Shown here one piece after another: positions 3,001-26,595 of a stretch of 29,476 nt of DNA. The position numbers and the translations under genes are program-made. How positions within the stretch are numbered: position 1 is the first letter of the stretch; each line of letters starts with the position of its first letter. The stretch covers positions 1-29,476 of the IMG/VR virus record IMGVR_UViG_3300041409_000587; one strand, 5' to 3'. The notes under the pieces were generated by a model. It saw nothing but the letters and a program-made list of their open reading frames with translations. It made no database searches and was not told where the DNA came from. This DNA comes from a virus.

Positions 3001-4901
3001 CGAACGTCCGCGCCGCCTATACCGGCCAGGTCTCTCACGCGGGCCCGATGGGCGGGTACGGCAACGCCGTCATGCTCGATCACGGCGGCGGGCTCCAGAC
3101 GCTCTACGCGCACCTGAGCAAGGTATCGGTGAAGCTTGGCCAGCTCGTCGAAATCGGCAAGGGAGTCGGGCTGGTCGGATCGAGCGGGCGGTCGACCGGC
3201 CCGCATCTTCACTACGAGGCGCGCCGGAACGGTCGCGCGGTAGATCCGGCGTCCGTCCTTTCGGCGGCGATCAACATCCCGGGCGGGGGTGGCGGCAACC
3301 GCATGGCGTCCGTCTCCGATGTGGTGAACGCGCTCCAGGCGGAGCCGTCCGCGGCCCAGTCCAGCCGGGCGCTCCAGGAAAGCGTGACGGCCAGCATCGC
3401 CGTGATGCGCCGCCAGGGCATCATAAAGACGTCGAACCAGTTGATGGCGGACGCCAACGCGCAGCCGCAACAGGCAAAAGCGCCGGCGACGGCCCGCGAA
3501 GCCTATAACGAAATGGGGCGGAAGATCGGGGAAAACCTCGATAAGACGTTCAAGACGGGCTCATTCTTCTCCGGCGTCGGGAAGAAGCTCGGCGATGCGC
3601 TCGAGGGATCGAGCTACGGCCAGATGGCGAGCGGCGTGGCGCGCGCGCTGGGCGTCAAGCAATCCGCGACCGGCGCGGCCATCGGCGGCGCGATCGGCGG
3701 CGCGATCGGCGGACCAATCGGCGGCGTCATCGGCGGGTTGCTGGGCGGCACGGTCGGCGGCATGTTCAAGAAGACGAAGAGCGGGTCCGCGACCGTTGGT
3801 ATCGACGCCTTCGGGAACGTCGGCTCCGTCGGCACGAGCGGCAATAACGAGCGCATGCGCACCGCGGCCGCGCAAACCGCCGGCGGCATCGGCGCCACGC
3901 TGAAGGATATCGCTGAGACGCTGGGCGGCACGGTCGGCGGCTTCGGGCGCTTCTCGATCGGCACCCGGAAAGACAAGTTCGTCGTCGACACCACCGGCCG
4001 GGGAAAGACGAAGGGTGGCGGCACCCAGAGCTTCGAAAGCGAACAGGAGGCGGTCGCCTTCGCGATGCAACTGGCGATCAGCCGCGGCGCCATCCAGGGC
4101 ATCACGGCGGCGTCGCAACAAATCCTGCGCTCCGGCCAGGATCTCCAGCGCGCGATCGAGAAGGCCGCCATCATCGAATCCATCCCGCAAAGGTTGATGA
4201 TGCGTCAGGATCCGGTGCGCGCCGCGATCATCGCGCTCAACCGCGAATTCCTCGAAATGATTAACATCCTGAAGGAGGGCGGCGCGACGGCTCAACAATT
4301 CGCCGATGCCCAGAAGCTCTATGAACTGGAGCGCGCAGAAGCGGTGAAACAGGCGGCTGAGCAAATGTTCGGCGCCATCGACGATTATCTGAAGGAAATG
4401 ATCGGTGGCACGAGCTCGCCGCTGAACAAGCGCACGGTCTACGAGAATAGCCAGGCGGAGCTCAGCAAGTTCACGAGCGACATCGGCGCGGGCAAGGTCG
4501 TCGACCAGAACGACCTCCTCACCGCCGCGCGGAACTTCCAGGAAGCCAGCCGGAATCTCAAGGGCTCCGGGCAGGGCTTCTTCGACGATTTCGACATGAT
4601 CTTCCAGTTGCTCACCCGCGCGCGCAACAATGCGGCCGGCACGCTTCCCGACGGCACCGCGGGCCCGGCGCTCCCGCCCTCGCCGTTCGAAACGGATTCA
4701 GCGGTGGTCTCCATCCTGGAATCGCTGCGCAACAGCACGGACGGGCAGACCAACATCGTCGGTGGCCTGTTGACGGAAATCCGCGATCTCCTTCTCGGCG
4801 GCGGCGGCACGGCCGGCGTTGGCGGTGGAAGCCTCCGCGAGCTCCCGGCGTTTGGGGGTGGCGGCAACAGCATGCTTGAGAATAGTGTACGGCTGAAATG
4901 A
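3..4901 (+). CDS. Tape measure protein with internal M23 peptidase (5' end outside the window)
   Basis: This protein sets tail length and is ejected with the DNA. The frame is open from the window edge, so the first residues are missing; a TTG at 81 is internal, because the sequence before it (GTFQGDELRSLRENTSQLAQ) already belongs to the tape-measure N-terminal family. Numbering from that TTG, hydrophobic stretches lie near residues 92-125 and 270-295, and long helical, Arg/Glu/Ala-rich segments near 300-850. A lysostaphin-like M23 metallopeptidase domain lies near 950-1060, with zinc ligands in HSGID (His963) and HLHY (His1042, His1044). A glycine zipper (repeated AIGG) lies near 1200-1232. 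The peptidase would locally open peptidoglycan during DNA entry. At least 1630 residues are visible, which by the usual 1.5 angstrom per residue rule suggests a tail well over 200 nm. The stop overlaps the next start (ATGA). The family call is firm. Confidence 0.93.
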   Translation, partial: QSREAGLYQFSQAFGSGTFQGDELRSLRENTSQLAQAIADGMGVSIGELKKLGAAGEITSQQVAAALERSADSIEKRYAKLPRTLSSAGSEFNNNLTVMVGRFDQVVGLTSNLASLLHVVGSNLNYILAAAIGLGAAFAAIKITGMIGGVVTAHRQAQGLQRAFEGIAAATTAQARGDAALATQRVQSLRLVKGGIEANIRALAAEKAAAAAVVQTQMTSRAAGNIVPQRFVTEALAREHDVTNRLRVATADLARSKAQLTTATVAATSASGRYEAVTRNVTTRTSLFRSALNGVIGAFNPWFVAITLVTGGLYLLATAQSNSERATERARKAMEDYGSIVDSTTGKIKELSRAERQRIVDEANTIIRSYKTGDPGSFEGTGGAGARLRSRLEVFQTDDPKRNAYLQALGRDLAKNGDNAAQALNKIFAAARAGDKDLSAFVKDNQDLINRFRDLNAAAKEAQKTLGLTTGATDPGFIERQAQAEAELASRVLTTTKQYERRAIAENTLNDNARFNDNLSSAYKDFGVPSPEDIEGIRTRIEALRKAPIPAGQEGVRASAVGDLNRQLTEAIERNTQYKATIEGAARALTTAQTAQRDFNREVTENKRDARDVAEEAKVAAEVALDTRLLAIEQSKATLGQRAYTDAKIDALRIYDAEVDRIENMIGASGKARSALIADARATAKAVEQAGIKRDEILGRYSEEPRAVVRGDRDIAELARIQAMLGKGLYPDEVRDADAQRIRDGVRKPMADILEDHRREMEVQNLILQGRDAEATALRQKHSLLDSIGEVNDAEYDQLVRNAEEQEKINFALQRRERVVSLITGAVDEARNGFETFLLDVRTKGPAAAGDLAKGLLQRFNQIQVRGFVERIFAGADEKVKALVSSRYAVESSSRNFAKQMGTTANSSKTLSEAFQFATRVIVDAANSIRDGVSAAASAPSAGLAAAASAPLSAIARRERMLAPLAGAVAASSGFGYRTDPFTGLQRFHSGIDMPQRAGTNVRAAYTGQVSHAGPMGGYGNAVMLDHGGGLQTLYAHLSKVSVKLGQLVEIGKGVGLVGSSGRSTGPHLHYEARRNGRAVDPASVLSAAINIPGGGGGNRMASVSDVVNALQAEPSAAQSSRALQESVTASIAVMRRQGIIKTSNQLMADANAQPQQAKAPATAREAYNEMGRKIGENLDKTFKTGSFFSGVGKKLGDALEGSSYGQMASGVARALGVKQSATGAAIGGAIGGAIGGPIGGVIGGLLGGTVGGMFKKTKSGSATVGIDAFGNVGSVGTSGNNERMRTAAAQTAGGIGATLKDIAETLGGTVGGFGRFSIGTRKDKFVVDTTGRGKTKGGGTQSFESEQEAVAFAMQLAISRGAIQGITAASQQILRSGQDLQRAIEKAAIIESIPQRLMMRQDPVRAAIIALNREFLEMINILKEGGATAQQFADAQKLYELERAEAVKQAAEQMFGAIDDYLKEMIGGTSSPLNKRTVYENSQAELSKFTSDIGAGKVVDQNDLLTAARNFQEASRNLKGSGQGFFDDFDMIFQLLTRARNNAAGTLPDGTAGPALPPSPFETDSAVVSILESLRNSTDGQTNIVGGLLTEIRDLLLGGGGTAGVGGGSLRELPAFGGGGNSMLENSVRLK

Positions 4902-17771: not shown

Positions 17772-18100
17772 GATGGTTTCCCTTCGTCGGCCTGGTTGAA
17801 GCAATGTTCCTCGAACTCCACTGGCGGATCGATCATCAAGCTTCGAAGCACGGCGGTCGTCATCGGGAGCGGTGCCTTCGTCAAATCGCTCCACCAGGCC
17901 GCGCCTACCGATATCATCGCGCGCGCCATAAGAGCGCGAGCAACCATCGACGTCGCGACGGAGGTATTGGCGTCGTTGAAACCGTCGAGCACGGTATCGA
18001 TCAGCTGGTTGGTGACCTCGATCGCGCGCGTAAGATCAGCCCTCTCCAGCAAGGCATCCCGCATGCCCTGGCCCATAGGGCTGAGTTGATCTTCCTTCAT
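17768..18100 (-). CDS. Small helical hypothetical protein following the methyltransferase
   Basis: This 110-residue protein starts at ATG 18100, overlapping the methyltransferase stop (ATGA), with a GGGGG run before it. It is mostly helical (MRDALLERADLTRAIEVTNQ, then ARALMARAMISVGAAWWSDL) and ends in an acidic tail (DPPVEFEEHCFNQADEGKPS). No family was recognised. Tight coupling with the cytosine methyltransferase gene makes a functional partnership conceivable, but no motif supports it. Confidence 0.68.
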   Translation of the reverse strand: MKEDQLSPMGQGMRDALLERADLTRAIEVTNQLIDTVLDGFNDANTSVATSMVARALMARAMISVGAAWWSDLTKAPLPMTTAVLRSLMIDPPVEFEEHCFNQADEGKPS

Positions 18101-20469
18101 GCAATCCCCCTTTCCATGCGGAACGCGACCTGGTCGTTGTCCACGGTGAGAGCGAGGGCCAGCGGCTTCACCCAAATTTCGCGGGTGGAAAGCATGAAGG
18201 TCTCGCCGGTATAGGCCAGCAACAGGGTCTCGCCGATGGTGTTGGCCATCGCCTTGGCCGCCGCGCTGGGGACGGCATTGCCGATCCATTCGCGCCTGGT
18301 GGCGTCGCTCGTCGTCTCGATCTCGAAGCCGTGGCGCGCTTTCCAAGCGCCGTCAGGATCCTGATAGAAGACCTCCTCCGGATCTATAATGCTCTGAAGC
18401 GAAGCCAGGTCGAGCGTCGTGAACGGCCGGTGCCACGTCCCGTCGAGCGCGATGATGCGACAGACGAGGCGATCGGTTGGCCCGGGCAGGATGATCGGCT
18501 GTGCCGGCGACAGGGTAGCGTCGCGAGGATCGGCGACGCTGTTGAAGCCGTTGTCGTGGCTGGCGGACGCGGCGACCGTATAGGCCGCGCCCTCCCACGG
18601 CACGACGCCGTAATGGCCGCCCGTCTGGTAATTCTCGCGCCGCTGGTCGGCGACGATGGGCGCGCCGGAGCCGACGCGATCGGTTCCGATGACCGCACCG
18701 GCCGGCTCGTCATAGGGTGTCACCCTCAACTTGTTCTGGTGGCTTCCATTGCCCCACGTGCACCGCGGATCGGCAACGGCGAACGCCCCGTTATCCCGCC
18801 CGGCGATGACCGCCCGGCTGGGATCGTTCCAATCCTCGATCCGATATTTGCCGTGGAGCTTGTCGGCGTCGTCGCCACCGCGCGGATCGGCCACCGCGAA
18901 GGCACCGTCGCCCGTCGTCGACGCGCCGATGACGGAGCCGGCCGGATCGGTGAAGGCGGTGACCTTGTACTTGTTCTTTTTGAACGTCGGCGAGCTCGGC
19001 GCGCGCGGATCGGCGACCGCCAGCCCGCCAGCTGGTCCACCAGGTCCAGCGACGGCCGGCGATGCTTCGCCATAGGGCACGACGCGGAAGGTGTTGTTGA
19101 AGCGCGGCCTTCCCTCGAGGCGGGGGTCGGCGACCGCATAGGGCCCTCCACCGACGCTCATATCGCCCTTCACGCATGCGCCTGGCTTGTTCCAAGGCCG
19201 CACGCCCAACTGGACGCTCTTCGGGTGCCCGTCGATGCGGGGATCGGCAACGGAGTAGGCACCGTTCGAAGGTGCCGAGCGGCTGGTAACCGTCCCCGTC
19301 TTGTCGTTCCACTCACGCACCCCCAGCACATCATCGTTCCATGCCGCATCGGCTGGGCGCGGGTCGGCCACAGAGTAGGCGCCGTTAAGCGGAAAGCCTC
19401 GCCCGCCGATCGTTCCAGCCTCCTCCTCCCAATCCGTGACGCCGAGCGCCGTGCGGTAGAGAGGGTCGGCCGGGCGCGGGTCCGCGACGCTGAAGCGGCC
19501 CTGTCCAGGCGCGCGCTGGCCAGTGACGAGCGGCGCGGTGTCGTCCCAGGCGTTCACGCCCAGCGCGTTGTCGCGCAGCGGAACCTCCGGGACGATGCCA
19601 TAGTCGCGCAGCACGCCGGCCTCGACGGTGAGGTCGTTGAGCGCGCGCCAATCCTTCCCGGCCGGCACGAGCGCCAGGCGGACCCACGTTTGCCAGTGAA
19701 GCGAGGGCACGCGGTGCATGATGCCCGCGACCGGATCGCCGGGGAGCGGGAGCTTGCCGATGACCTCGCCGACGCCCCTGAGCTTGAATTTGGGCGGTTG
19801 GTAGACGAACGGCGGCACCTTCTCCGGATGGCGCGCGATCAGCAGGAAGCGGTTGCGCGACTGGGCCAGGTTGCCGATCTCGCCGCAATTGTGGGTGTCT
19901 TCGTTGACGTGATATCCGTAGTGCCTGAGCAGCGCGATAATCTGGTCGAGCAGCGGCCTCCCCCGGCTGGCGATCCTGGGCACGTTTTCGAACAGGATGA
20001 TCGAGATCGGATCGTGCTTGTAGGCTTCCAGCAATAGCCAGATGCCGCGCAGCGTGAGCGCGTTGAGCGCCTGATACTTGTCCGTCTTCGATTGGCTGGA
20101 GCTGAGCAGCCCGGAGAAGCCCTTGCATGGCGCCGACGTGAACGCGACGTCCACATGCGGCCCGAAGACGGAAAAGATATCGGCCGGCGATGCTTCTTTC
20201 CAATCGGCCGGCGGCTCCTTGCCGTGGAAGGCTTCATATTGAGGCCGGTCGAACAGGTCCATGAGGGTGCCCGCCACGCCCGTCTGGTTGCGGAACTCGC
20301 GGATCGCGCCGGCGTCGCTGTCGATGCCGCCCGCGCATTCGAAGCGCGCCGTCATGTGGCCGATCCGGGGATTGGCCTGGTTGAAGCCCTTCGCGCCCGC
20401 CCCGATGCCGCAAAACATATGGGCATGGCGGTAGACGCGCTCGATATCTTTGGTGTGGATGACGCTCAT
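18097..20469 (-). CDS. Cytosine-5 DNA methyltransferase with nine tandem VADPR repeats
   Basis: This 790-residue enzyme should transfer a methyl group from S-adenosylmethionine to cytosine C5 in DNA. Motif I is MFCGIGAGAKGF (residues 18-29), motif IV APCKGFSG with catalytic Cys115, motif VI FENVP (Glu161), motif VIII QSRNR (203-207), motif IX RPFTTLDLASLQ and motif X GNAVPSAAAKAMANTI near residues 735-755. The usual enzyme is about 330-450 residues. Here about 360 extra residues (roughly 300-660) between motifs VIII and IX are nine units of 38-41 residues, each a Trp/Tyr-x-x-(Pro)-x-x-(Thr/Val)-(Val/Ile) segment ending in VADPR (once VADQR). The ATG at 20469 with GAAGGAAGGAA upstream is the chosen start. 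It could protect phage DNA from restriction or prepare it for further modification. The methyltransferase call is firm; target sequence unknown. Confidence 0.92.
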   Translation of the reverse strand: MSVIHTKDIERVYRHAHMFCGIGAGAKGFNQANPRIGHMTARFECAGGIDSDAGAIREFRNQTGVAGTLMDLFDRPQYEAFHGKEPPADWKEASPADIFSVFGPHVDVAFTSAPCKGFSGLLSSSQSKTDKYQALNALTLRGIWLLLEAYKHDPISIILFENVPRIASRGRPLLDQIIALLRHYGYHVNEDTHNCGEIGNLAQSRNRFLLIARHPEKVPPFVYQPPKFKLRGVGEVIGKLPLPGDPVAGIMHRVPSLHWQTWVRLALVPAGKDWRALNDLTVEAGVLRDYGIVPEVPLRDNALGVNAWDDTAPLVTGQRAPGQGRFSVADPRPADPLYRTALGVTDWEEEAGTIGGRGFPLNGAYSVADPRPADAAWNDDVLGVREWNDKTGTVTSRSAPSNGAYSVADPRIDGHPKSVQLGVRPWNKPGACVKGDMSVGGGPYAVADPRLEGRPRFNNTFRVVPYGEASPAVAGPGGPAGGLAVADPRAPSSPTFKKNKYKVTAFTDPAGSVIGASTTGDGAFAVADPRGGDDADKLHGKYRIEDWNDPSRAVIAGRDNGAFAVADPRCTWGNGSHQNKLRVTPYDEPAGAVIGTDRVGSGAPIVADQRRENYQTGGHYGVVPWEGAAYTVAASASHDNGFNSVADPRDATLSPAQPIILPGPTDRLVCRIIALDGTWHRPFTTLDLASLQSIIDPEEVFYQDPDGAWKARHGFEIETTSDATRREWIGNAVPSAAAKAMANTIGETLLLAYTGETFMLSTREIWVKPLALALTVDNDQVAFRMERGIA
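18523..19590 (-). repeat. Nine tandem protein-coding repeat units inside the cytosine methyltransferase
   Basis: Nine units of about 117-123 bp end in codons for VADPR or VADQR; the last ends at 18523 and the first VADPR is at 19474-19488. The DNA is diverged but the endings (plus strand GGATCGGC(G/C/A)AC pattern) recur at even spacing. The unit resembles the canonical W-d-x-P-x-x-T-(I/V)...HP-d-x-R element that precedes motif IX in C5 methyltransferases, so the array looks like a repeated duplication of this enzyme's own segment. Confidence 0.85.
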
Positions 20470-20476
20470 ATTTTCA

Positions 20477-20487
20477 TTCCTTCCTTC
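20477..20487 (-). promoter_or_regulatory. GAAGGAAGGAA ribosome-binding leader of the cytosine methyltransferase gene
   Basis: The 11-mer ends 7 bases before ATG 20469 and decides this start over an in-frame ATG at 20502 that lies before it. It is one of seven identical copies at the heads of gene groups in the leftward block. Confidence 0.75.
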
Positions 20488-20950
20488 AGAGTAGACGGTC
20501 ATGCCGAGTTTTCGGCTCTTCGTAGATATCCTGGAGCTTCCGCCGCCTGGACTTGGTATCCCACTGGCGGTTACCCTTTACGTCGGCGGCCGGCGACCAT
20601 CCGCCTCCGGCCAGATTGCGCATGGATTCCCCGCCCTCGCGCTTCAGCGTGTAGGTGACGATCCTCGTGCCGCCCATCAACTGCCAGATGCGCGCGCAAC
20701 GCTGATAGAGAGCGGACGGCGCACCCTTGGGAGCTTTGTCGGAGACGCAACAGCGAACAACTTCCGCCGTTCCCTGATCCTGGAGCATCCGCGCCACCGG
20801 CCGTCCGCAGATCGCGACCCCTACAAGCTCACCATCAACCTCGATCCCGATGGCGAATTTACCACCGTCGTTGTTGGTCCGGCTGGAATGCCGATGATGA
20901 GCCTCGACGAAATTGTTCGCCAGCTTCAGGGTGAGCGGCACGAATTTCAT
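20486..20950 (-). CDS. GNAT-like phage protein (XF1762-type), possible DNA-modification partner
   Basis: This 154-residue protein has an acetyltransferase-like pattern: FVEAHHRH (residues 14-21), GELVGVAICGRPVAR (40-54), EVVR (63-66), LYQRCARIWQLMGG, then IVTYTLKREGGESM. This is the layout of the XF1762-type family of small phage/prophage GNAT-like proteins. The acceptor substrate of that family is not established as far as I know. The gene overlaps the adenine methyltransferase stop by 1 bp (TGATG) and lies just before the cytosine methyltransferase, so a role in modifying phage DNA, as the GNAT-fold Mom protein of phage Mu does, is worth considering. Protein or small-molecule acetylation is the alternative. 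A longer frame extends upstream to 21730 but only as a shadow. Confidence 0.78.
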   Translation of the reverse strand: MKFVPLTLKLANNFVEAHHRHSSRTNNDGGKFAIGIEVDGELVGVAICGRPVARMLQDQGTAEVVRCCVSDKAPKGAPSALYQRCARIWQLMGGTRIVTYTLKREGGESMRNLAGGGWSPAADVKGNRQWDTKSRRRKLQDIYEEPKTRHDRLL

Positions 20951-21720
20951 CACGCGGCCGCCAGATATTGGTCGCGCTCGACGCGATGCCCGACCTGGGC
21001 GAGCTTCTGTCGCACCTTCGCCCGCCAATTCGGATTCCGCTTCGCCTTGGGATGGCGCGCGAAGAAGCGATATGCGTCCGACACGCTCACCGGGCCCGGC
21101 TGGCGATTGATCCATTCGCGCATCACCTGGGCCCATGAAAGGTCGAGGCCGGCGACCATAGCGAAGCGCGCGAAGCGCAGCGGCACGAACGCGCCCTCGA
21201 TATCGCACGCGGCCAGCCGGTCCATGTCGTCCGCCCCATAGGCGCACAGCACGGATGGCGCGCCCGCATTGGCCGCCGCGCGCGTCCCGTCGGCATGGTG
21301 GAAATGAAGCCGGCCGGTAAGGAAGAGCAGCCCGGCCGCCCGATGCCACACTTGCCGGGTGAACGCGCCGGTCTCCGTCCGGGCGAAGATGAGCGCCGTG
21401 CCCCGGTTGTGATCGCCAAGCTTGCGAAGCCACGCTTCGATCTCCGCCGCCGTATAGGGCGGGTTGAGGAAGACGCGGCCATCCCATTCCATCGCCAGGC
21501 CATCGCCATCGGCGAGCGAATTCATCATGCGCGCGGTTGACCACGGGCGCGGCGCGGGCGCGGCGCACGGGTCGAGATCGAATTCGCCCAGCGCCTCCAG
21601 AATGGCCGGCGGCGTGAGCCATGTCGTCGTCGCGGCGGCGGCCGATTGATGTCCACCGATCCCTTTGCGGGTGGAGTCGACCGGAGCGGGAAGCGGCGGA
21701 AGATCGAAGAGCCCGTTCAT
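20950..21720 (-). CDS. Phage-type DNA N6-adenine methyltransferase
   Basis: This 256-residue enzyme should methylate adenine N6 in DNA. The pattern TPPAILEALGEFDLDPCAAP followed by VFLNPPY (catalytic NPPY, Asn86) and later FTRQVWHRAAGLLFLTGRLHF is that of the phage Dam-type family (PF05869 style). The 60 C-terminal residues (SVSDAYRFFARHPKAKRNPN, then WRAKVRQKLAQVGH) form a basic helical extension that could bind DNA. It starts at an ATGA overlap with the preceding gene and overlaps the GNAT-like gene by 1 bp, so all three are probably made together. The target sequence cannot be read from the protein. Confidence 0.9.
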   Translation of the reverse strand: MNGLFDLPPLPAPVDSTRKGIGGHQSAAAATTTWLTPPAILEALGEFDLDPCAAPAPRPWSTARMMNSLADGDGLAMEWDGRVFLNPPYTAAEIEAWLRKLGDHNRGTALIFARTETGAFTRQVWHRAAGLLFLTGRLHFHHADGTRAAANAGAPSVLCAYGADDMDRLAACDIEGAFVPLRFARFAMVAGLDLSWAQVMREWINRQPGPVSVSDAYRFFARHPKAKRNPNWRAKVRQKLAQVGHRVERDQYLAAA

Positions 21721-23794: not shown

Positions 23795-24050
23795 GTCGAT
23801 TTCCTTCCTTCGAATTGAGGGCGCGGGCCAGGTGGCCGGCGTAGACGGCGACGCATTTCCAATAGAGCGCCATCGGTGCCTTGTGCGTCCGCCAGCACTT
23901 TTCGGCTCGCTCACGAGCGTCCACCCGGACCTCCTTGAGCACGTCGATCAGGCCGGCGCGCGCGTCCGGGTCGATGCTGGCCAGCCTTTGCACGGATGGC
24001 AGCGCCAGCATCGGGTTACGGACCTCGCGGCGGATCGAGCGATCCGTCAT
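23682..24050 (-). CDS. Hypothetical protein following the sliding clamp gene
   Basis: This 122-residue protein starts at ATG 24050, overlapping the clamp gene stop (ATGA). The first 85 residues look like a helical protein (LPSVQRLASIDPDARAGLID, then ERAEKCWRTHKAPMALYWKC). The last 37 codons lie inside the next gene in another frame and are Arg-rich, so the natural end may be elsewhere or the tail may be dispensable. No family was recognised. Coupling to the clamp gene suggests a replication-linked role, unproven. Confidence 0.62.
   Translation of the reverse strand: MTDRSIRREVRNPMLALPSVQRLASIDPDARAGLIDVLKEVRVDARERAEKCWRTHKAPMALYWKCVAVYAGHLARALNSKEGNRHAKIQSDVHRARRHPRDLGNQRRQRSRCAPVLRRKPG
23801..23811 (-). 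promoter_or_regulatory. GAAGGAAGGAA leader of the zinc-ribbon gene
   Basis: The 11-mer ends 6 bases before ATG 23794. It lies inside the end of the upstream gene, whose frame continues 113 bp beyond this start. Confidence 0.72.
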
Positions 24051-26518
24051 CCTGCCATCGCCCGTCGCACGGCTGGGCCGCCCATGATGATGGTTGGAAG
24101 CGGCTGGACCTGGACGGGCCGCACCGCTTCGATAGCCGCCGCAATGGGAGCGAGACGTGCAACCTCGGCTTGGGAGGTAGTGAGGCGGCGTGTCAGGTCC
24201 ACCGCGCGCTCCGCCGATTGCTGGGCGAGATTGAGCGCATCGGTGGCGCGGGTATCATTGTCCCGGGCCCGGTGGCGAAGCGCGCGAATCCGGGTGCACG
24301 TTCCCAGGCGCTTTGCGGAGAGGCGAGCGCGGGAGGCTTCGGAGACGCGCAATGCCGCGCTCAGCCGGTCGATTTCGCTCACCAGCTCCGCCCGTTCGTC
24401 GGAAGCAATCGCGGCCACGGCGTTGATCGCATCCGCCAAGGCATCGGCGACTGGCTCAGGCGCGGTTTCCGGCCCCGGCTGGGCCGGTGGAGCCTCGGAT
24501 GGAGCTTCAGGCTCCAGGACAGGCCCAGAGACCGCCACCGCCGGCGATTCGACCGGCCTTGCCCTCAATTCGACAAGCTCAGCCTCCAAAGTGTCAATGC
24601 GGCGGAGCATTGCGACAACCGTATCCTGCAAATCGGCAATCTGGCGCGCGGCCATTGTCCCGGAGACCTTGGGCGGCGTGACGCTGACAATCGACGTGCG
24701 ATACACGCAATTCGAGTGGCGGCGGCTGCGCTGCTCTTTCCCGGTGGCGCTCACCCGCTGAAGGAACGGCTTCGAAAGATCGCGCAGCTCGCTCGCCAGC
24801 ACGAAAGCCTCTTCGCCGACGGTATTGACGATAGGAAGCACGTGGCGGCTATCGGCCGGATCGAAGCCGGGCATCGTCGCCAACTGGGCAATCGCCAGCT
24901 CCATCGTGCGGATCGCGCCGAAGCCAGCCGAATTATGCGTCCGGCCATGGCCATAGCAATGAAAGCCGTGCGCCTCCGCCGCCATCGCGAGCTGGCGAAG
25001 CCGAGCCCGGTTCAATTGCTTGCCCAGGTCGCGCATGGCTTTCGGCTTTTGCTCCGCCTCGCGACGGATGTTGGCCGCTTTCAGCACCAACTCTTGCCGG
25101 TTTTCCCGGGCCGACGATTTCGGATTGCTTTCCGCGAGCGATTCCATGCGGTCGCGCACCGCCTCGGCAATCGCCGCCTTGTCCCGGGCCGCATAGGCTT
25201 CGGCGTAGAGACGTTGGAAGCGATGATAGGGGGATTCGGAGGGCTTTTCCGGTTCGGCATCCTTCTGTGCCGCGGCGATCGAGCGCCCCGCGTCCGTGTG
25301 CATCGGCATAAGCACGCCGAGGAAATCCGGCATGTCGCGAGACGTCCAAAGCATGGGCGCGGTGCAATCGGCGATGGTGACGTTCACGTCGCCTTCCCCG
25401 AAGATGCCGCATAGCTCGCGGGCATAGGCCGCGTTCGCGCCGATTTCCAAAGACGGCGGAGCCGCTTCGTCATAGGTGCCCGGCACTTTCCAGCCGCACG
25501 CGACAGTCGCCTCGGCAACGCCGCTTTCCGGGCTGTAGCACGACAGCGTGAGCCCGGCCCCGGTGATTGCCATATGCACCGCGCGCGTCCCTTCCTTCGC
25601 GACAACCGCCGCCGCGCTTGCAATGCCGCCGTCCAGCGCCTTGGCCGCAATCGTCATGACCTTGTCGTTCGCGGTCGGGATGACGCGGGTGTAATCCGGG
25701 AAAGAGCCGTCGATCAGCTTGGCGGTTACCCTCCAGCGGTCGAAGCAAAACAGCGACTTCGTGTCGCTCACGCTGAATTTCGCCTCCCGGCTGGACGTCG
25801 CCTTCTTCTTCGGCTTGCCGATAAGCTTCAGCATGGCGGCAATCGACTTGCGGGGAACAATGACGTCCGGGAAGGTCTCAGCGTCCACACCTTCGGGCAT
25901 GGCGCGGGTGACCACATGAAGCCGGTGGCCATCGGTGGCGGCGAAGCGAAGCATTGGGGAATCGCCGCCGTAGCGGTGCATGAAAATGCCGTTCAGATAG
26001 TAGCGCGTCTCTTCGGTCGAGATCGCCGGTTGAACGCGGGCCAGGTCCAGGGCGAATTCATCGGCCGGAAACGCGAGGCTGGCCAGCATGACACCGGGCG
26101 CGACGTGCGGGAACCTATCGGCTGGGAGCGTAGGCAGAAGCATCGACGCGCCGCCGCCTGAGACCTTCAGCTTCCCGCCCTCGGTTAGCTCCAACGTCAC
26201 CAATTCGTCGCCGCATCCCTTGACGGCGGAAAGCAACGCCTTGGCATCCGCCGCGACGAAAGGCTCGCAATCGGCTGGCCAGTCGCCGGGAAGGCTGGTG
26301 GTGGCGAAGATATCCAGATCGGTGCCCGTGATCGTGACGACGGAGCTCCCGTTGCCTTCGGGAGCGAAGAGCACGCCGGAGAGGATCGGGATAGGGTTGC
26401 GCCGCTCGATGATGGAGCCGCACAGGAAAGTCAGCGCCTCGGCGAGGTTGGCGCGTTCGAGCACAATAATAGCGGGCAGCGCGGCATCGTTGGCCGCTTC
26501 AATTTGAGCATGTTCCAT
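24047..26518 (-). CDS. dnaN-like: DNA polymerase III beta-type sliding clamp with a long C-terminal extension
   Basis: This 823-residue protein holds the polymerase on DNA. Residues about 12-405 match the bacterial DnaN clamp over all three domains: ERRNPIPILSGVL, TGTDLDIFATT, LPTLPADRFPH, ISTEETRYYLNGIFMH, ATDGHRLHVV, VIVPRKSIAAMLKLIG, SFPDYTRVIP, and the end LGVLMPMHT. About 420 residues follow, unlike the normal clamp, which stops here: a helical, Arg/Ala-rich part (about 415-590), a Pro-rich linker, and a coiled coil to the C-terminus. ATG 26518 follows a GAAGGAAGGAA leader by 8 bases. An internal ATG at 24655 (residue 622) could start a separate coiled-coil protein, but no strong ribosome site precedes it. 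Clamp call is firm; the extension is unidentified. Confidence 0.92.
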   Translation of the reverse strand: MEHAQIEAANDAALPAIIVLERANLAEALTFLCGSIIERRNPIPILSGVLFAPEGNGSSVVTITGTDLDIFATTSLPGDWPADCEPFVAADAKALLSAVKGCGDELVTLELTEGGKLKVSGGGASMLLPTLPADRFPHVAPGVMLASLAFPADEFALDLARVQPAISTEETRYYLNGIFMHRYGGDSPMLRFAATDGHRLHVVTRAMPEGVDAETFPDVIVPRKSIAAMLKLIGKPKKKATSSREAKFSVSDTKSLFCFDRWRVTAKLIDGSFPDYTRVIPTANDKVMTIAAKALDGGIASAAAVVAKEGTRAVHMAITGAGLTLSCYSPESGVAEATVACGWKVPGTYDEAAPPSLEIGANAAYARELCGIFGEGDVNVTIADCTAPMLWTSRDMPDFLGVLMPMHTDAGRSIAAAQKDAEPEKPSESPYHRFQRLYAEAYAARDKAAIAEAVRDRMESLAESNPKSSARENRQELVLKAANIRREAEQKPKAMRDLGKQLNRARLRQLAMAAEAHGFHCYGHGRTHNSAGFGAIRTMELAIAQLATMPGFDPADSRHVLPIVNTVGEEAFVLASELRDLSKPFLQRVSATGKEQRSRRHSNCVYRTSIVSVTPPKVSGTMAARQIADLQDTVVAMLRRIDTLEAELVELRARPVESPAVAVSGPVLEPEAPSEAPPAQPGPETAPEPVADALADAINAVAAIASDERAELVSEIDRLSAALRVSEASRARLSAKRLGTCTRIRALRHRARDNDTRATDALNLAQQSAERAVDLTRRLTTSQAEVARLAPIAAAIEAVRPVQVQPLPTIIMGGPAVRRAMAG

Positions 26519-26526
26519 AGGTTTCG

Positions 26527-26537
26527 TTCCTTCCTTC
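26527..26537 (-). promoter_or_regulatory. GAAGGAAGGAA leader of the sliding clamp gene
   Basis: The 11-mer ends 8 bases before ATG 26518. It supports this start over an ATG at 26572 and lies in the 108-bp gap after the next upstream gene. Confidence 0.73.
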
Positions 26538-26595
26538 AATTCGGGCATCGGCGCCCGCCAAGCCGTCGGCAATGGATCCGGCGGCTGGGCGGACG

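Follow-up and report, generated by a model that had tools for sequence, protein, structure and literature searches.

A predicted cytosine methyltransferase from a virus (IMG/VR record IMGVR_UViG_3300041409_000587; we analysed a stretch of 29,476 nucleotides, which we will call the window) has a tandem array of nine related units between motifs VIII and IX. We think it likely that this is an orphan phage C5-methyltransferase that is multispecific and counters restriction, similar to M.SPRI and M.Phi3TI, with nine modules. We propose that the region which recognizes the target consists of nine small target recognition domain (TRD) modules in tandem, that each module is one copy of the TL element, and that a single catalytic core is served by different modules in turn. 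One protein would then methylate cytosines in several different short sequences, which would guard the genome of the phage against many restriction enzymes of its hosts. The modules would come from a pool of a few dozen types that the enzymes share, with whole cassettes gained, lost, or replaced by recombination between mobile elements, and through this exchange, the choice of protected sequences would be tuned to whichever restriction systems are encountered.

The reading frame on the minus strand is open from an ATG at 20502 (18097–20502), and this alternative start would give a protein of 801 amino acids. The start at 20469, which has a good ribosome-binding site (GAAGGAAGG) ahead of it, is probably the true start of the gene. 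The main parts of the gene are:

18097..20469, minus strand: predicted C5-cytosine methyltransferase gene, 790 amino acids (Pfam DNA_methylase, E = 1e-12; phrog_32684, E = 1.8e-90)
19813..20427, minus strand: N-terminal catalytic core with motifs I, IV, VI, and VIII (amino acids 26–230 of 801), from the motif scan and a model with pLDDT of about 90
18223..18429, minus strand: motifs IX (RPFTTLDLASLQ) and X (GNAVP) and the C-terminal helix of the catalytic domain (amino acids 692–760; pLDDT 77–95)

The Pfam match covers the N-terminal 200 residues, and besides phrog_32684, the protein matches the methyltransferase family phrog_116. A phmmer search of the PDB sequences with the window protein gave no match. 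As originally predicted, the core motifs of C5-methyltransferases (PF00145) are all present and in order. In the numbering of the 801-residue protein, they are motif I (FCGIG, 30), motif IV (APCKGFS, with the PC pair, 124), motif VI (ENV, 172), motif VIII (QSRNR, which fits QxRxR, 214), motif IX (692), and motif X (741). We rejected a plus-strand open reading frame opposite the array (18331–20037), which is a high-GC shadow frame without support.

The AlphaFold2 model of the core has high confidence (pLDDT of about 90) and the class I methyltransferase fold of M.HhaI and M.HaeIII: VIA-align gave Z = 24.9 against M.HaeIII (1dct; 3.2 Å over 289 residues) and Z of about 23 against M.HhaI. For the array, pLDDT was about 30–45, both in the window protein and in a family member with 4 units, from alignments of 41 and 63 sequences, respectively.

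The array has nine units of 39–41 residues, and their number agrees with the nine VADPR units of the original prediction. Eight units end with VADPR and one ends with VADQR. Counting from 0, these endings are at 338, 377, 417, 456, 495, 536, 575, 616, and 655, or 39, 40, 39, 39, 41, 39, 41, and 39 residues apart. In 5,000 shuffles of the protein, VAD[PQ]R occurred at most once. In the DNA of the window, the array was not among the repeats reported by Tandem Repeats Finder, because the units have diverged: each is 44–56% identical to the closest unit within its own array. Here are the units, with the number of proteins (from a set of 150 relatives, described below) that contain the same unit type:

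19474..19569, minus strand: unit 1, NALGVNAWDDTAPLVTGQRAPGQGRFSVADPR, type found in 22 of 150 proteins
19357..19449, minus strand: unit 2, ALGVTDWEEEAGTIGGRGFPLNGAYSVADPR, the sole member of its type at the 60% cut
19237..19329, minus strand: unit 3, VLGVREWNDKTGTVTSRSAPSNGAYSVADPR, type found in 94 of 150 proteins
19120..19212, minus strand: unit 4, QLGVRPWNKPGACVKGDMSVGGGPYAVADPR, type found in 17 of 150 proteins
19003..19095, minus strand: unit 5, NTFRVVPYGEASPAVAGPGGPAGGLAVADPR, type found in 34 of 150 proteins
18880..18975, minus strand: unit 6, NKYKVTAFTDPAGSVIGASTTGDGAFAVADPR, type found in 114 of 150 proteins
18763..18852, minus strand: unit 7, GKYRIEDWNDPSRAVIAGRDNGAFAVADPR, type found in 7 of 150 proteins
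18640..18735, minus strand: unit 8, NKLRVTPYDEPAGAVIGTDRVGSGAPIVADQR, the sole member of its type at the 60% cut (the SDRVGSG type is nearest)
18523..18618, minus strand: unit 9, GHYGVVPWEGAAYTVAASASHDNGFNSVADPR, type found in 109 proteins and last in 107 of its 109 occurrences

The TRDs of C5-methyltransferases have a C-terminal consensus, (YFW)x(RK)x5P(STCA)PT(ILV)(TASV)x5-16H(PFYWL), which lies 10–50 residues before motif IX and includes residues whose contacts with DNA are critical (PMC2413257). It was by this TL motif that Trautner's group delimited the TRDs of multispecific enzymes and exchanged them (PMC2413257). Across the family of the window enzyme, the unit consensus is GKYGVVPWDEPAGTVTGASGPGNGAFSVADPR. 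Its Y-G-V-x5-P-A-G-T-V-T is in register with the TRD consensus, except for V instead of R/K and G instead of the second P. Ordinary C5-methyltransferases co-occur in genomes with the array family (for instance, with YGRMEWGKPAPTMTGQCFGFGNGRFGHPEQHRAISLREAAILQ as the segment before motif IX). A hidden Markov model of the units, which was built without the ordinary enzymes that it was run on, matched the single element before motif IX in four single-TRD C5-methyltransferases (domain E = 2e-5 to 4e-4). When we compared the unit profile to a canonical profile with hhalign, it aligned with this segment as well (P = 1.8e-4, score 26.4, probability 48%); the scores of 20 column-shuffled unit profiles did not exceed 15.1. 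The original prediction had likened the units to the W-d-x-P-x-x-T-V element before motif IX, and the model matches, the hhalign placement, and the register with the TL consensus all agree with it. Judging from these sequence comparisons, the units are copies of the TL element, which within the TRD carries the DNA-reading loop.

Such arrays are widespread. With tblastn, we found relatives of the window enzyme in 36 phage records and 167 plasmid records. The phages include Pseudomonas phages (Citexvirus and Hollowayvirus), Sinorhizobium phage PBC5, and Marinobacter phage PS3; the plasmids are from Sphingopyxis, Sphingobium, Pseudomonas, Burkholderia, Roseomonas, Bacillus, and Paenibacillus. The closest relatives are largely from Sphingomonadales, which hints at the host. 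Pattern scans with the family alignment confirmed at least 591 stretches in viral contigs, and 395 in genome contigs; a scan of the viral contigs with a single protein gave nothing, and matches came only with the alignment as the query. Among 165 full-length proteins, there were 2–10 units each, with a mode of 6, and the unit spacing peaked at 39–40 residues. (This sample comprises the 80 best matches from each collection, so it leans towards relatives of the window protein.) VADPR arrays are carried by a large family on phages, prophages, and plasmids, and an enlarged region between motifs VIII and IX is the norm for the family rather than a peculiarity of the window enzyme. We did not find a description of VADPR arrays in the papers searched, and the family is apparently undescribed so far.

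How did the arrays arise? The original prediction was that the array came from repeated duplication of the enzyme's own segment. A recent self-duplication can be rejected because the units are closer to units in other enzymes: for the units of the window enzyme, the identity to the closest unit is 0.66–0.84 in other enzymes versus 0.44–0.56 in its own array. Similarly, we compared 936 units across 150 non-redundant proteins: 934 of them are closer to some unit in an enzyme with a core that is under 75% identical than to their array mates. Clustering 844 distinct units at 60% identity gave 94 clusters, and the 32 clusters with at least 5 members hold 89% of the units. About 30 common unit types recur at varied positions, although some favour the first or last place, and the 150 proteins have 121 distinct arrays. 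Thus, the arrays are mosaics of old, shared unit types, and not recent copies of one segment.

Pairs of enzymes with nearly identical cores differ by the replacement, insertion, or deletion of whole units, with unchanged units on either side. L006 and L102 (100% identical cores) are one inserted unit apart. L050 and L051 (99%) differ at units 3 and 5, L036 and L049 (98%) differ at units 1–3, and L039 and L058 (97%) differ at units 4 and 5. In the latter three pairs, the nucleotide identity of the exchanged units is 0.50–0.64, versus 0.89–0.99 for the units that were kept and 0.94 for the core. In two members with 4 units (L135 and L158), the usual last unit (GHYGV...HDNGRW) is missing and a unit of a middle type abuts motif IX, so the terminal unit is exchangeable too.

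We also considered that a nearby store of silent units, or an invertible locus for shuffling, might supply new units. This was rejected: in about 160 flanking regions and in the window, there was no unit-like sequence outside of the methyltransferase reading frame, except at one frameshifted gene. That gene (L021:3073-5399, from plasmid plas2 of Croceicoccus marinus) is a close relative that is annotated as a methyltransferase and an overlapping "hypothetical protein"; as the array is in the second frame, the gene is either frameshifted or missequenced.

A given unit type is almost never used twice in the same array. Just 4 of 150 arrays contained a type twice, while shuffling the middle units between proteins (also within the same position) led us to expect 50–56 such arrays and never gave fewer than 36; related arrays are not independent, so we view this as a strong tendency rather than as an exact probability. 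A repertoire of targets would be expected to be non-redundant, whereas DNA coating, affinity by valency, and decayed copies would give no reason to expect this. The original prediction had offered either a multi-target or a DNA-coating surface. Coating needs no diversity of types, and coating or affinity by valency is unlikely because the types hardly ever repeat within an array; recognition of multiple targets is indirectly supported. Because of the non-redundancy and the swaps of whole units, we regard the units as candidate specificity modules, and the comparisons suggest that the unit set resembles a repertoire of specificity modules that can be exchanged, rather than coating or padding. 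Each unit would have its own DNA target, one module at a time would dock on the core, and countering restriction would be the selective reason for the array. Since unit types have preferences for some positions, an added role for the units in ordering is possible.

Alternatively, a single unit might read DNA (the first, or the conserved last one), with the others being decayed copies or structural spacers that remain from duplication. The commonest last-unit type is indeed the type that is most fixed in place. Also, six of the nine units in the window enzyme lack the conserved threonine at the first TL position (they have L, C, A, S, A, and A instead), which fits a single reader and counts against multispecificity. 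(Across the family, the residue at this position is T in 46% of units and A in 38%, and the second TL position is V or I in 99%.) However, G24, V28, A29, D30, P31, and R32 are retained almost without exception across the family's units, with no sign of decay, although the invariance of D, P, and R is partly by construction as these residues belonged to the seed pattern. The loop after the TV is among the most variable parts of the unit. Furthermore, it is the internal units that are exchanged, and L135 and L158 do without the usual last unit. We consider a single reader to be improbable. It is far less probable still that the array binds proteins, such as host restriction enzymes or partners, as a decoy or a scaffold that is fused to the methyltransferase. 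Diverse and exchanged modules would suit protein targets as well, but the units are homologous to a DNA-reading element and are in the location of the TRD.

How does the window enzyme compare to characterized methyltransferases? M.HhaI, M.HaeIII, and Dcm share motifs I–X with it (and the core fold, with Z of 23–25 for M.HhaI and M.HaeIII), but they have a single TRD, with one TL element before motif IX, and one target, instead of nine units. M.SPRI, M.Phi3TI, and M.H2I are more similar: like the window enzyme, each is an orphan phage enzyme with one core and with tandem TRDs that bear TL elements between motifs VIII and IX. Unlike the VADPR family, with its 2–10 units, they have two or few TRDs and they do not have the VADPR framework. 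The second C5-methyltransferase of phage phi3T (444 amino acids), which we take to be M.Phi3TI, has two TL elements that are 47 residues apart. When run on M.Phi3TI, the unit model gave no significant match to the TRDs. We therefore place the window enzyme outside of the SPbeta-group lineage; by analogy, it would work like M.Phi3TI, using the mechanism of the Bacillus phages with nine modules. A single core that employs several TRDs by turns is well established: in temperate phages of Bacillus, multiple TRDs that are arrayed in one polypeptide guard against many restriction systems (PMC12707154). In the papers searched, no shared pool of types of this size is described for the multispecific enzymes of Bacillus phages.

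The exchange of units is reminiscent of the specificity subunits (HsdS) of Type I systems, whose TRD cassettes are exchanged between alleles. Unlike the window enzyme, HsdS has two large TRDs, is a separate subunit, and acts in adenine methylation with a restriction partner.

Another family of C5-methyltransferases that is found on phages, the RR1-A type, includes RHXG_00060 from Rhizobium phage RR1-A (L217:580-2673), JCM7686_0772, JCM7686_2655, and Phi2LM21_p23. RHXG_00060 has 697 amino acids and nine TL elements that are about 32–42 residues apart, and relatives of this type are in 251 phage records. In contrast to the window's family, several units of the RR1-A enzyme end in a VAPxL-like motif instead of VADPR, and motif IV is SPDCKHFS instead of APCKGFS. 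The RR1-A-type enzymes were not among the records that tblastn matched with the window protein. This seems to be a parallel family with tandem TRDs that is equally undescribed. JCM7686_0772 and JCM7686_2655 are from Paracoccus aminophilus, and their homology to the RR1-A protein and to Phi2LM21_p23 has been stated (PMC5537653); they presumably carry TL arrays as well. The homologs that were tested are of the RR1-A type: they gave only partial protection, and their relative Phi2LM21_p23 was inactive in E. coli (PMC5537653).

Relaxed cytosine specificity was measured in two RR1-A-type homologs (PMC3925955), and the RR1-A type gives our proposal indirect experimental support. We also considered that the window enzyme might be relaxed or nonspecific, with a flexible DNA-binding array that raises affinity: many cytosines would be methylated with little choice of sequence, and the units would not have separate targets. 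The array is rich in glycine and proline, and AlphaFold2 gives it no stable fold, as this would predict. However, this leaves unexplained why distant enzymes have conserved, loop-specific types in common, why cassettes are exchanged, and why types are almost never repeated. We think that a nonspecific enzyme is unlikely, albeit less so than a single reader.

If the units are specificity modules, then many DNA-reading modules could be deciphered together by matching arrays to methylomes, the restriction barriers that an element can cross would become predictable, and the use of many TRDs by one core would become directly testable. A further idea, to which we give slightly less than an even chance, is that the units form a recognition alphabet, with each common type reading one fixed short sequence regardless of its position or its neighbours. 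The methylation spectrum of any family member could then be read from its string of unit types. So far, multispecific C5-methyltransferases are known mainly from a few Bacillus phages. The array family would bring this principle, at a larger scale and with visible cassette exchange, to several hundred phages, prophages, and plasmids from Proteobacteria and some Firmicutes, including resistance plasmids (pVIM records). Our proposal describes a real, conserved, and apparently undescribed enlargement of this principle.

The genes around the methyltransferases also fit an orphan enzyme in that, among the named neighbours in the window and the annotated neighbourhoods of relatives, there is no restriction enzyme, and so no cognate endonuclease as in type II restriction-modification systems. 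The neighbours of the phage and plasmid relatives include ParB-like proteins, a single-stranded-DNA-binding protein, a zincin-like metallopeptidase, and RdgC, which would fit a region for establishment or anti-restriction.

The window itself is viral, with genes for a tape measure, a tail-tip protein, an endolysin, an ATP-dependent DNA ligase, a Dam-like methyltransferase, and a sliding clamp. The Dam-like N6-adenine methyltransferase (20950–21720, minus strand) is directly upstream of the C5-methyltransferase and is a second orphan modification enzyme. The sliding clamp is a phage-encoded DNA polymerase III beta clamp (a processivity factor) within a reading frame of 841 amino acids (24047–26572, minus strand), which has a C-terminal extension of about 415 residues without a clear match. 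Finally, the gene for the tape measure protein (1606 amino acids) contains a 12/36-base tandem repeat (3665–3761, plus strand), and this protein also bears a metallo-endopeptidase domain at about residues 940–1090.
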